From Candidatus Hydrogenedentota bacterium (GTDB taxonomy: Bacteria > Hydrogenedentota > Hydrogenedentia > Hydrogenedentales > SLHB01), in assembly GCA_029552745.1 (NCBI GenBank), contig JAKPDK010000172.1, positions 1-64,000 of the forward strand: DNA of 64,000 bases, read 5' to 3'. The notes below the pieces were generated by a model. That model ran no database searches, was not told the DNA's origin, and saw only the letters and a program-made list of their open reading frames with translations. This document shows positions 1 through 35,293 of the stretch, one piece after another; within the stretch, counting starts at the first letter, position 1; each line of letters begins with the position of its first letter. Made by a program: the position numbers and the translations under genes.

Positions 1-141
1 ATGACAATCTGGGTGTCTCATAGCCCAACGATATCCGATCTGGGCCGCTCGATAAAACCCCCGAATCCGGTATCCCTTATGATGCACCTGCATCTTAGTC
101 TACCTCCTCGATGCAGTGCCAAAGGTTTGTGAGCTTATGCA
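1..141. repeat. Right-hand end of dispersed ~0.5 kb repeat element (partial copy 1)
   Basis: The first bases (ATGACAA) match the point where the two complete elements leave their inner CTCGCAATGAC module. The segment ends with the shared right terminus CTCCTCGATGCAGTGCCAAAG followed by GTGAGCTTATGCA. The same terminus recurs near 16159-16196 and, more diverged, near 35252-35293. The rest of the element would lie left of the window. The middle part (about 8-100) is not obviously shared with the other copies. A minus-strand reading frame (93 to 1) with a purine-rich GAGGAGGT upstream is open to the edge, but it lies inside the repeat and I do not call it a gene. Confidence 0.7.
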
Positions 142-239
142 CTGAACTTCAAAACAACTCACCTATGCCGGAAATAGAACCAAAAAACTCCAAAACACAT
201 TCGCGAGAAGGTTTGAGAAGTCTTTACTCGGTTCGATGA

Positions 240-15219: not shown

Positions 15220-15645
15220 TTAGCCGAAATACTTCTTAAAATAGGCTGGGTCGTCCAATTTCTGCAATTCGAAACGAACCCAGTTTTCAAATTCCTCTTG
15301 CGAGATCGGCGTGTTATTGGAAACATCTGCCTCACGCCCGTCTTTGCCATCCGACTCGTCCGAATCGTCCTCTATTCCTTCCAAAGGATTCGCCATAAAG
15401 GGACTTAAACCGACCGAGAAGAAATTTGCATCGAGAAACTCGGCAACGATATCCGCAATGTGTGCTTTGCGCTGTTCGGGTGTCCCATGCTCCAAAATCT
15501 CTCGGTTGATGGGAATCACTTTATTCCGGAAGAGGACCACAAAGCCTTGACAATTGGGACAAGGCCAAACCACAACAACATCCCTGGGTATTTTTGTGGT
15601 TATCACACCATGATTACCACAATGGGGGCACGCAACAACTCTCAT
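15220..15645 (-). CDS. Small zinc-ribbon protein with acidic tail
   Basis: I do not recognise a specific family. The 141-aa protein has an N-terminal treble-clef or ribbon pattern: CPHCGNHG, then CPNC about 25 residues later. A helical part follows (EQRKAHIADIVAEFL), then an Asp/Glu-rich stretch (GIEDDSDESDGKDGRE), and it ends with a short helix (QEEFENWVRFELQKL). The ATG at 15645 is preceded by AAGGTG; an open frame upstream adds 24 codons without support. It lies directly upstream of the amidase on the same strand. CxxC ribbons plus a CpXC-like layout suggest zinc binding; a nucleic-acid or partner-protein role would be a guess. Confidence 0.75.
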   Translation of the reverse strand: MRVVACPHCGNHGVITTKIPRDVVVVWPCPNCQGFVVLFRNKVIPINREILEHGTPEQRKAHIADIVAEFLDANFFSVGLSPFMANPLEGIEDDSDESDGKDGREADVSNNTPISQEEFENWVRFELQKLDDPAYFKKYFG

Positions 15646-15723
15646 GTTATTCACCTTAGCGTCCTTTTTTAGGATACGCCTGTAGTAATTGTAATCAAGA
15701 AAGGGCAAAAAGGTCAAATGAAT

Positions 15724-16196
15724 GTATATGTCCAGTACCTTTGGTACTTTTTTATGCTCGATGAGGAATTGAACTGAGGATTTTCCATGAAGGTTCTTAA
15801 GAGAGAGGCACCGACGCGTAACGTCATAGGTGGGTTTAATCTATCTATGACCCCCTTAGTCCCCGCACACGCGGGGGGTGCCTCCCCGCCGTGTTGTTCT
15901 TCTGTCATCCCTTCTTAGGCCCCCGCATACGGGGGACAGACGGGGGCTGAACCGTGCGCAGGAGATAGAAAGCCGTCCCCCGTTGTCATTGCGAGGAGTG
16001 CCGCAGGGCACGCCGTGGCAATCCCCTCGGGAAGTCGGGGGAAACCCGGGACGGGAAGGGCGCAACATGTTGCGCCCCTACAAAAAGGGAGTGGATTGCT
16101 TCGTCGCTTCGGAGACTCGCTCCTCGCAATGACAACCGAGCGTATGAGCTTGGCCGGTCTCCTCGATGCAGTGCCAAAGGTTCGTGAACTTATGCT
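15724..16196. repeat. Dispersed ~0.5 kb non-coding element, complete copy 2
   Basis: The left terminus begins TGTATATGTCCAGTACC and contains ACCTTTGGTACT. The right terminus, read on the other strand, is GCATAAGTTCACGAACC followed by TTTGGCACTGC. The two ends therefore form imperfect inverted repeats of about 26 bp around ACCTTTGGCACT, each followed by a CGATGAGG/CGAGGAG block. Inside lie GC-rich hairpins (CCCCGC-ACAC-GCGGGG at 15861-15876), an inverted GTCATTGCGAGGAG module and a perfect 20-bp palindrome. No transposase or other plausible ORF is present. No target-site duplication was evident. The element fills almost all of the gap between the zinc-ribbon gene and the kinase gene. Confidence 0.75.
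15985..16135. repeat. Nested inverted GTCATTGCGAGGAG module (potential large hairpin)
   Basis: GTCATTGCGAGGAG at 15985-15998 is the exact reverse complement of CTCCTCGCAATGAC at 16121-16134. Just inside, GGCAATCCC and GGATTGC can pair as well. The arms enclose about 120 bases that include a perfect 20-bp palindrome at 16058-16077 (GGGCGCAACA and its complement). Similar short palindromic families are widespread in bacterial genomes. Here they sit inside a larger element. Confidence 0.7.
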
Positions 16197-16286: not shown

Positions 16287-18191
16287 TCAGAATATCGACG
16301 CCAACTGCTCAACGGTGTCTGGAATTTCAAAAACAATACGGAAGGAGACGTCCCCAGGTCCCGCTTCGAAGGCGACGGGAAGTCTAATCCTTCCGGTACC
16401 CGAAGGCGCCATGCCGCATACGGTCATGTTTGTCCCGAAAAAAGGTTCCGTGGCTGCATCCGAATTCGTAGCTGAGAGATAGGGATCCTGGGAATAAACA
16501 GTGCGTGTCCACTCACGAATACCATTCTCAGGGGCTTGAACGTCGAAGTGCTCTTTCGATGCTATGAATACCCTTGTCCACTGGGCTTCTGTGGGTAGTT
16601 TCGCATGTTTCCACGACGCATAAGCCAGGGCAGAATAATAGGGTATCCCCACCACTGGTTTGCTGAGTAGAGTATCATCGAGATTACCTTGTGCCAGATA
16701 GGCAGGAGCCACCCACCCCCCGGAAACATTGCGAACAAAGTCTAAAAAGTCTCGGTTTGTTACAAGTGTCCGCGAAATAAAAAAACCCGACAAACGTACC
16801 GATTTAGGATTACCAGCGGAGTCCTGAAGCACGACTTCCCCGGGCGGAATGAAACAAAATGATGGGTCCGCAGCCCACAAGATTACACCTGCAAAACACT
16901 GCAACGCAGAAACGAACAAAGCCCTTCTCTGCACGCTGTCAACCGCCTCGGTATCCGCCTGTCTTAGAAAATCCTCCCCGAGCGCCAACACATTCCGACA
17001 CTCCTGCGAAGTACGAGCGGCTTCTCGGGCTTTTTCATGGGCTTTTGCCAGCAAATCATCAATGTGTAGTGCGTAAGAGGCTGGGTTTTCTTCCGCAAGT
17101 GGAGACCTGGAATCGCTTCGGACAGAAGTCAAAATTCCCAATCTCCAAACCAAAAAACTTCCTACCGCCACAATCACTACTATGGCTAAGACCTTCCCAA
17201 TATTCTTCTTGGTAGTAGGCGCCGCCCGCTTGACGACAGGCTCCGCTGCTACCCCTTGTTCATTAGCAGCATCTAGAGACTTAATAACCTCTCGGATTGC
17301 TGCACGCAACTCATGCGCTGTTTGGTAACGGTTCTTGGGGTCCGCCGCCAGACATTTGGCCACAATTGCATCCATAGCTTTTGGAACGTCAGGTGCCTGT
17401 TCCGAAAGAGGAGCAGCAACGGCCGTGGGCAACTCACCCGTAAACAACTCATAAAGCAACACGCCAAGACTATAGATGTCTGCACGTGCGTCCACAGCGC
17501 CACTATCACGAAACTGTTCGGGTGACATATACTGCGGCGTACCCATAACAATTGAAGTCATAGTAAGGCGAGTATGCGCTACCAATTTGGAGATACCGAA
17601 ATCCATCAATTTCACTGTCCCGTCGGAAGTGATCATGATGTTTTCCGGTTTAATGTCTCGGTGTACCGTGTACCGGTGCGCATACTCAAGAGCCGCGCAT
17701 ATTTGGTCGACAATCATCAACTTCTGACGGAGTGTCAGCGCTTTTTGAGGGTCCCGTTCCTCCAAATAGGTTCTCAAAGAACGGCCGTCAAGATACTCCA
17801 TGGAGATATACATCACGGGTCCAGCCATTCCGATATCGTGAACCCTTACGATGTTGGGGTGCGACAGTTGGCGTGCAATTCGGGCTTCATTATAAAACCG
17901 TTCCACCACGGTTTTGTCTTGAGCAAATTGGGGCAACAACGTCTTTAACGCCACCTGCTCCTTTAATACGTCATCATGTACGCGGTAAATAGCCCCCATC
18001 CCTCCCCGTCCAACCAAACCCAATACACGGTACCGGTTGGCAACAACCTGGCCTGGCTTCAAGGTGAAAAGATCTTTTTGCAGGCCCGCAGCCTGGGGTG
18101 GTGCTGATTGAATAGGCGTGCCACAATGAGCACACACGGTGGCATCGGGACTATTTTCCCGTCCACATGACGGACACGTATTTGCGCTCAT
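16287..18191 (-). CDS. Membrane Ser/Thr protein kinase with zinc ribbon and SUMF1-like extracytoplasmic domain
   Basis: A zinc ribbon comes first (CPSCG...CAHCG, residues 6-24). A Hanks-type kinase domain (about 53-300) follows, with GRGGMG, VALK, HRDIKPEN, DFG and SPE motifs. A single membrane helix lies near 332-352, and the roughly 280 residues after it should be outside the cytoplasm. The last 190 residues resemble the FGE-sulfatase/SUMF1 fold (FIPPGEV, TNRDFLDFV, PVVGIPYYSALAYASW, KLPTEAQW, IREWTR), with a diverged end. This part may be a ligand-binding sensor rather than an enzyme. The start is ambiguous between the ATG at 18191 and GTG codons at 18197 and 18200. It faces away from the M28 peptidase gene. 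Confidence 0.88.
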   Translation of the reverse strand: MSANTCPSCGRENSPDATVCAHCGTPIQSAPPQAAGLQKDLFTLKPGQVVANRYRVLGLVGRGGMGAIYRVHDDVLKEQVALKTLLPQFAQDKTVVERFYNEARIARQLSHPNIVRVHDIGMAGPVMYISMEYLDGRSLRTYLEERDPQKALTLRQKLMIVDQICAALEYAHRYTVHRDIKPENIMITSDGTVKLMDFGISKLVAHTRLTMTSIVMGTPQYMSPEQFRDSGAVDARADIYSLGVLLYELFTGELPTAVAAPLSEQAPDVPKAMDAIVAKCLAADPKNRYQTAHELRAAIREVIKSLDAANEQGVAAEPVVKRAAPTTKKNIGKVLAIVVIVAVGSFLVWRLGILTSVRSDSRSPLAEENPASYALHIDDLLAKAHEKAREAARTSQECRNVLALGEDFLRQADTEAVDSVQRRALFVSALQCFAGVILWAADPSFCFIPPGEVVLQDSAGNPKSVRLSGFFISRTLVTNRDFLDFVRNVSGGWVAPAYLAQGNLDDTLLSKPVVGIPYYSALAYASWKHAKLPTEAQWTRVFIASKEHFDVQAPENGIREWTRTVYSQDPYLSATNSDAATEPFFGTNMTVCGMAPSGTGRIRLPVAFEAGPGDVSFRIVFEIPDTVEQLASIF

Positions 18192-18276
18192 TGCCACCAC
18201 TTCAGTCTACCCTCGAATGCCTTTTCCACTAGGGTACATACATCGTACCTAGAAAAGACAATCTCACGCAAAAACA

Positions 18277-18374
18277 TGTATAAGTTCAATACCTTTGACA
18301 CTTTTTATGTTAGATGAGGAATTATTGAAGAAAGGGTTTTCCATGAAAATCCTTGACGGAAAGACACCCCTCAC
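18277..18374 (+). repeat. Solitary left terminus of the dispersed element (copy 4)
   Basis: About 100 bases starting TGTATAAGTTCAATACC match the left ends of the elements at 15724 and 34786. The match runs through GATGAGGAATT and GGGTTTTCCATGAAA to AAGACACCCCTC. No hairpin modules and no right terminus follow. It sits in the 240-bp spacer between the divergent kinase and peptidase genes. The copies stay alignable in one reading frame (LDEEL...GFSMK...KTP), but the copy at 15724 has an in-frame TGA, so coding is doubtful. Confidence 0.65.
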
Positions 18375-34570: not shown

Positions 34571-34645
34571 TGGCTGGGGCGGGAGGATTCGAACCTACGA
34601 ATGCCGGGACCAAAACCCGGTGCCTTACCACTTGGCTACGCCCCA
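34571..34645 (-). tRNA. tRNA-Gln (UUG anticodon), CCA encoded
   Basis: On the minus strand the acceptor arm TGGGGCG pairs with CGCCCCA, followed by an encoded GCCA end. The anticodon stem CCGGG/CCCGG encloses a TTTTGGT loop, giving anticodon UUG. The T arm contains GGTTCGAATCC. The sequence closely matches the bacterial tRNA-Gln pattern (AGCCAAGTGGTAAGGC D-arm). Confidence 0.95.
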
Positions 34646-34785
34646 GCGTAAACTCCAGCACGAGCGGCCTATGTCCCCATTACCCTTTGAATAAGGAACC
34701 GGGACAAACGCTTACGCCGTGCAAATGGTTCAAGCCTGGACAAGGACTATTTTATACCAATTTCTAGGGAAAGGATTCAACTTCT

Positions 34786-35293
34786 TGTATAAGTGCAGTA
34801 CCTTTGGCACTTTCTGTTACGTTGAATGATGAATTGAAAAGGGGATTTTCCATAAAGGGCATTAAGGAAAAGACGCCGACGCGTGGTCCCCGAAGTATGT
34901 TTGAGCCATTTACAAAGCCCTCGAGCATTTGGGATTATTCTTTTTTCCGTGCCACGTTCCATTGCACTATAGCCCCGCCGCTGTCATTGCGAGGAGCCCC
35001 GAGAGGATAACGTGGCAATCCCCTTGGATACCCGTAAATTGCCCCGAGTTCTTCCCGTTGCCTCTTGTGCTGCGTCCCCCACTGCTGTCATTGCGAGGAG
35101 CCCTGAAAGGGCGACGTGGCAATCCCCTTGGTTATGCGGAGATTACCCCTTCCCCTGCCCCACATGCTCTTGCGCTGCACGGACAAGGGGATTGCTTCGG
35201 CGCTTCGGGAATTCGCCCCTCGCAATGACAACCATGCGCAGAAGCCAAGGTCTATCTCCTCGATGTGCTACCACATGTTTATGAGCTTATGCG
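34786..35293. repeat. Dispersed ~0.5 kb non-coding element, complete copy 3
   Basis: The left terminus TGTATAAGTGCAGTACC followed by TTTGGCACT matches the elements at 15724 and 18277 for about 100 bases. The right terminus (CTCCTCGATGTGCTACC to GAGCTTATGC) is a more diverged version of those ending at 141 and 16196. Inside, GTCATTGCGAGGAG-type modules occur twice in direct orientation and once inverted. No ORF in it looks real. It fills most of the 780-base gap between the tRNA and the helicase gene; the remainder holds the helicase promoter. Confidence 0.75.
34981..35232. repeat. Two direct and one inverted copy of the GTCATTGCGAGGAG module
   Basis: Copy a (34981-35027) and copy b (35085-35131) are nearly identical 47-base units, CTGTCATTGCGAGGAGCCC to GTGGCAATCCCCTTGG, spaced 104 bases apart. 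A reverse copy (35185-35232) ends CCCTCGCAATGACAA. Either direct copy can pair with the inverted one, through GTCATTGCGAG and the inner GGCAATCCC/GGGGATTGC. The arrangement differs from copy 2, which has only one direct module. Confidence 0.75.

Follow-up and report, generated by a model that had tools for sequence, protein, structure and literature searches.

What kind of element are the gene-less repeats of about 0.5 kb that recur in the window (the whole 64,000-nucleotide stretch of DNA analysed here), and what decides where they come to rest? The earlier note on this DNA had described two complete copies and a solitary left end with common, inverted-repeat-like termini, and all of these proved to be real, with the limits listed in the table. 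In fact, the elements of the window match one another at imperfect terminal repeats (TGTATAAGTCCAGTACCTTTGGCACT / TGCATAAGTTCACAAACCTTTGGCAC), and the 23-base terminal motif gave 84 matches in the genome versus one with a reversed control pattern. The interior had been called free of open reading frames, which holds insofar as no meaningful frame is found there, an unsupported one of 100 codons overlapping copy 1, but a pair of REP-like GTCATTGCGAGGAG modules had been missed. Similarly, the stretch at the very start of the window had been taken for the right end of a third gene-less copy; its terminus is indeed of the right-end type, but it is the 5' end of an autonomous insertion sequence (IS), complete with the transposase start codon.

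Table. Repeat elements, predicted promoters and adjoining genes in the window
Feature	Position	Strand	Remarks
Autonomous IS481-like IS, 5' end	1-141	-	cut by contig end; boundary at 141
Transposase codons 1-31 (MQVHHKGYRIRGFYRAAQIGYRWAMRHPDCH)	1-93	-	start codon at 93
Target duplication of this IS	142-146		CTGAA; identical to the 5-mer ending contig C29
141-aa gene	15220-15645	-	downstream of promoter at MITE copy 1
Predicted -10 box, MITE copy 1	15688-15693	-	TACAAT; 18-bp spacer; gene 15220-15645 downstream
Predicted -35 box, MITE copy 1	15712-15717	-	TTGACC; first base 6 nt out from element end
Target sequence, MITE copy 1	15718-15722		5 bp, ATGAA; right-hand duplicate decayed, 3/5
MITE copy 1	15723-16196	+	474 bp; begins at 15723 with the left end, of the IS 3'-end type
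Inverted pair of REP-like GTCATTGCGAGGAG modules	15985-16133		within MITE copy 1
Protein kinase / FGE-sulfatase-domain gene	16287-18191	-	downstream of solitary-left-end promoter
Predicted -10 box, solitary left end	18242-18247	-	TACGAT
Predicted -35 box, solitary left end	18266-18271	-	TTGCGT
Solitary left end	18277-18374	+	right end not found
tRNA-Gln (TTG) gene	34574-34645	-	downstream of MITE copy 2 promoter
Predicted -10 box, MITE copy 2	34751-34756	-	TATAAA; 18-bp spacer
Predicted -35 box, MITE copy 2	34775-34780	-	TTGAAT; N5 = 34781-34785
MITE copy 2	34786-35293	+	508 bp
Paired REP-like GTCATTGCGAGGAG modules	34983-35229		within MITE copy 2

Searched over the whole genome (4.36 Mb, 188 contigs), the MITE query gave 74 BLAST matches, and relaxed matching returned at least 91 distinct left ends and at least 50 distinct right ends, so the scarcity of copies that the earlier note would have held against a mobile element is not what the genome displays. 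Our collection of copies was anchored on left ends; for 55 of the 91, a recognisable right end is present, mostly 300-740 bp away, and the complete copies have their interior in common, beyond the ends. The flanks of the left ends are mutually unrelated, with no pair among the 91 reaching 60% identity over 60 nt. Moreover, in 59 relatives of the same family or order, the end motif occurs only at the level of the control and the transposases are distant ones only, and conserved orthologous positions, which had also been named as counting against mobility, are not seen among them. For an orthologous or empty-site comparison, no genome of the same genus was found. Many copies, including the solitary one in the window, are left ends lacking a right end, and these may be remnants or else retained promoter-upstream sites. 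At L010 (G000:C3:3052-3115), the end of one element has come to rest beside that of another, giving two left ends in head-to-tail order with 41 bp between them.

The autonomous IS was pieced together from contig ends, several of which fall within one identical stretch that opens with the same left end as the MITEs. This stretch is prolonged by contig C95, whose opposite strand codes for an integrase-core transposase; its C-terminus (...NKKCQRYWTYTM) is read from the left-end terminal repeat itself, and its start codon lies just within the right end of the IS. Contig C106 provides the 5' half, overlapping the C95 half by 141 identical bases. The assembled IS, a composite with halves from two different copies, is thus about 1.09 kb long, with a 348-codon transposase frame and imperfect terminal repeats of 26 bp. 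Pfam domains identified in the transposase are rve, rve_3, and HTH, and its best NCBIfam model is IS481 (NF033577) at 174.9 bits, which is under the model's cut-off of 224, though ISKpn28 of the same clade exceeds it (236.8 bits). Only rve/IS481/IS3-like and HTH models were matched in Pfam and NCBIfam, with Mutator-type models absent, and Asp185, Asp243, and Glu278 are invariant in an alignment with 14 homologues. Hence, a transposase with matching ends, which the earlier note had proposed as something to look for, does exist, and of the two enzyme types suggested there, it is the DDE and not the Y1. In one decayed IS copy (L145:2531-6460, G000:C25 end), we noticed an insert of about 3.2 kb that splits the element, carries a 785-codon ORF (L145:3600-5957, minus strand), and is flanked on either side by a short IS-derived repeat.

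Although no clear target duplication had been seen before, duplications of 5 bp do exist. Among the 55 paired copies, the 5-mers beside both ends agree at 2.67 of five positions on average, versus 1.30 ± 0.13 when permuted (5,000 permutations, maximum 1.84); the duplication is exact in nine copies and 4/5 in twelve (together 21/55), and decayed (3/5) in both window MITEs. Where the assembly has broken an IS copy in two, the 5-mer at the left end recurs at one right end and no other in six of seven cases (contigs C29-C26, C7-C25, C23-C24, C35-C162, C36-C27, and C37-C106). One of these, C29, holds the other half of the IS at positions 1-141, with the exact duplication CTGAA; it pairs with C26, the window's own contig, and so adjoins its start. 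As a side benefit, such identical 5-mers at contig ends reveal which contigs adjoin one another across a collapsed IS copy. Altogether, the idea of a non-autonomous mobile element amplified in trans is upheld by the autonomous IS of this genome, which shares both ends, by the 5-bp duplications, by the unrelated flanks, and by the absence from 59 relatives.

What had escaped attention is that the left ends adjoin predicted promoters. Those faced by the window's three left ends belong to the 141-codon gene, the tRNA-Gln gene, and the protein kinase gene. The 141-aa product has no Pfam match, though zinc-ribbon-like cysteines can be made out by eye, and the tRNA is the sole match in an Rfam scan. 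A model-free profile of all 91 left ends, read outward, shows no base preference at +1 to +5, then T (96%), T (83%), G (80%), A (63%), C (38%), and A (42%) at +6 to +11, and a TATAAT-like smear at +29 to +35, whereas the outward profile of the right ends is flat, with nothing comparable. When scored with an approximate sigma70 matrix (the profile being independent of it), a predicted promoter with its -35 starting exactly at +6 is found at 84 of the 91 left ends, as against a shuffled mean of 3.9 (maximum 8) and a background-like 6% of right ends; the other seven left ends have no recognisable promoter. The spacer between -35 and -10 is 17 bp in 41 copies and 18 bp in 42, and the N5 between left end and -35 is the target duplication. 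The preference goes beyond a bare TTG: of the left ends with TTG at +6, 76% have a -10 scoring 3 bits or more at 16-18 bp, compared with 6-8% of other TTG/TTGAC sites in sampled DNA (TTGAC: 8%). Moreover, at 80 of 86 decidable left ends (80:6), the longest frame on the outward side is read in the direction leading off from the element, with a median start 78 nt out, while gene orientation at right ends is 24:24. Among the recent, near-identical IS copies, six of seven show the promoter pattern, the exception being C23/C24. Insertion is therefore targeted to promoters, as these are predicted in this organism, with spacing and orientation fixed. We consider it very probable that the repeats of the window are MITEs of a resident IS481-like IS, mobilised in trans, whose 3' (left) end is placed 5 bp upstream of the -35 of an outward sigma70-type promoter. 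With respect to the genes concerned, tRNA genes lie directly downstream of eight of the 91 left ends (L002, L017, L037, L041, L042, L062, L083, and L161), so that strong promoters seem to be overrepresented among the targets.

Promoter-adjacent homologues also occur in the Patescibacteria, Gammaproteobacteria, and Campylobacterota. At 39-50% identity and with differing end sequences, these elements from other phyla show the same order of ...ATACA, N5, a TTGACA-like box, N16-18, and a TATAAT-like box. A promoter score of 4 bits or more at +6 is reached in 29 of the 36 homologue rows whose 3' end is clear. In a single homologue (L234), what reads by eye as a tRNA gene lies downstream, and no clear promoter was seen at five others (L216, L217, L296, L243, and L341). 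A promoter register is found as well in a more distant group from the Patescibacteria with the terminal core TACATCGGTAACA, where, with ends set by eye, the best promoter offset clusters at 17-21 from the inner core. The transposase tree holds this group, the closer homologues, and ISKpn28, with promoter-adjacent copies on either side of its deepest fork, and a single clean gain of promoter adjacency is not seen on it. A multi-copy element in a Ruthturnera genome (L300-L309; 27% identity) has flanks without the register, though as its sequence looks IS3-like, it serves as a loose control only.

The nearest named element is ISKpn28 (IS481 family), known from plasmids and chromosomes of Klebsiella and E. 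coli, whose transposase is about 42% identical. At 1,096 bp and with the ends TGTGTAAG...CCATACA, it resembles the IS described here, and likewise has its 5-bp duplication directly beside -35 boxes. We found ISKpn28 with exact 5-bp duplications before promoter-like sites in Klebsiella, Serratia, and E. coli. Beside hok genes, the duplication is followed by TTGCCT-N17-TAACCT or TATCCT, which we take to be Sok promoters, and beside ldr genes by TTGTAA-N17-TATTCT, presumably those of Rdl; dinQ has TTGCAA, and on a ColE1-like plasmid the sequence is TTGACT-N17-TTAATC, which we assume to be the RNA I promoter. The copies at hok, ldr, and dinQ thus recur at apparent antisense-RNA promoters (L361, L363, L365-L369, L373, and L376), and at these type I toxin loci the insertion displaces the upstream DNA and leaves the core promoter. 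As there is no same-genus genome and no terminal repeat above chance in the 59 relatives, the empty site is presented for ISKpn28: at the hok/sok locus of NC_020893.1, TTCTTCTCC-TTGCCTTGCGGC is one uninterrupted sequence (empty L359 versus occupied L353), with one additional base separating the ISKpn28 end from the duplication in L353. At four copies (L364, L371, L372, and L375), a clear promoter is lacking, and several of the promoterless copies, of ISKpn28 or of the homologues, are without a matching duplication, as after rearrangement. The passages available from the ISKpn28 literature make no mention of promoter targeting.

As for the mechanism, the left end, which is the 3' end of the IS, comes to lie 5 bp before the -35 hexamer with the promoter pointing outward, and the staggered cut of the transposase would cover about promoter positions -40 to -36. 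The core promoter would stay intact, and its being spared would explain why some 90 copies are tolerable. Rather than the hexamer alone, the transpososome would read a promoter occupied by the RNA polymerase holoenzyme, docking on the side of sigma region 4 and the alpha C-terminal domain, where the DNA near -40 would be bent. The asymmetry of the two ends would set the orientation of insertion, as proposed for TnGBS (PMC3942029). Taken alone, recognition of a polymerase-bound promoter is somewhat more likely than not, and the polarity, the requirement for a -10 at promoter spacing, and the recurrence at strong promoters all point to it. At a rough probability of 0.55, we favour the reading that a wide IS481-like clade, from the Patescibacteria to ISKpn28, lands on the holoenzyme at sigma70 promoters, which would make this a second, independent case of promoter-guided transposition, with a geometry tighter than that of TnGBS.

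Alternatively, the transposase itself might read a -35-like TTGAC 5 bp from its cut without RNA polymerase, the -10 then arising through site bias or survival. It is indeed the -35 that stays fixed, with 96% T at +6, while the spacing to the -10 varies between 17 and 18 bp, and the HTH domains could contact the hexamer. However, TTGAC sites lacking a -10 are far commoner in the sampled DNA (8% have one), yet 76% of the targeted TTG sites do, insertions would then also be expected at neutral TTGAC sites between genes, and ISKpn28 recurs at apparently strong small-RNA promoters; we therefore regard direct reading as unlikely, if worth entertaining. Copies that land within genes do harm and seldom persist, and random insertion followed by purifying selection could in principle have left just the least harmful copies upstream of promoters. 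Yet selection could not set a single-base spacing and a fixed orientation, the right-end flanks are featureless (24:24 gene orientation), copies near terminators or elsewhere between genes would do equally little harm, and recent near-identical IS copies already show the pattern in six of seven cases, all of which makes this account very improbable. Just as implausible is a regulatory origin, in which the left end would be a conserved upstream activator element of many promoters that was captured by the IS: while left ends without a partner abound (of 91, 55 have a recognisable right end), there are the 5-bp duplications, the absence from 59 relatives, the interior common to complete copies, and homologous IS elsewhere that keep the same spacing with other terminal sequences. 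Some left ends may nevertheless have been put to later use by the host. Amplification by a Y1 REP-associated transposase, prompted by the paired REP-like modules and a Y1_Tnp protein encoded in the genome (G000:C118, L343), deserves next to no credence, since both the termini and the 5-bp duplications are those of the DDE IS, Y1 enzymes are not known to produce target duplications, and REP-region matches occur, passenger-like, without element ends as well.

Within the window, these paired modules occur inside the two MITEs only; elsewhere in the genome they match on their own, as partial matches (about query 253-414). They look like passengers, or like another repeat family lodged within that of the MITEs; the limits of the element are set by the IS terminal repeats with 5-bp duplications, and the modules are internal, unlike the arrangement of a REPIN/RAYT system, where REP hairpins mark the limits and there is no duplication.

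That a transposase lineage unrelated to the Mutator type targets promoters with single-base precision bears on the old question of how transposons land safely. With ISKpn28 being clinically common and also common in laboratory-tractable enterobacteria, the host factor is directly testable. Left ends, moreover, are natural markers of likely promoters and could serve to map these in uncultured genomes, and the insertions push away the control DNA upstream, among others at genes for toxin-silencing antisense RNAs and for those that set plasmid copy number.

Among known systems, classical IS481 from Bordetella shares the DDE/rve transposase family and the TG...CA ends with the IS described here, though its target is of the CTAG type and not a promoter. 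Most IS481 members make duplications of 6 bp rather than 5, but the family ranges from 2 to 15 bp and 6 bp is no strict criterion (PMC10045372). As far as we could find, fixed-distance promoter targeting was previously known in bacteria only for Mutator-type elements; for IS481-like elements no report was found in the literature searched, which took in few subscription papers and no IS database, and an earlier notice may exist. The Mutator-type elements in question, TnGBS, ISLre2, and ISKra4 (p-MULT 3 and 4), insert 15-17 bp upstream of sigmaA promoters (PMC3942029). Like the present IS, these have a DDE enzyme, a fixed distance upstream of the promoter, and an orientation given by asymmetric inverted repeats, but their transposase is from another superfamily and the distance to the -35 is 15-17 bp instead of exactly 5. 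A comparable geometry is that of the ISAjo2 group of the IS1202 family, which inserts 5 bp from a XerC site with a 5-bp duplication and fixed orientation (PMC10132070), and the IS1202 group is nested within IS481 in one phylogeny (PMC10045372). Here, the 5-bp duplication, fixed orientation, imperfect terminal repeats of 24-26 bp, and 5-bp distance from the site of a host protein are all shared, while the dif/pdif target, the transposase of 441-457 aa, and the IS length of 1.5 kb are not; the flanks in our genome are predicted -35/-10 promoters in 84 of 91 cases and not the XerC site of dif. By analogy, this common placement at 5 bp from a bound protein suggests that the transposase group repeatedly evolves docking to DNA-binding proteins of the host.
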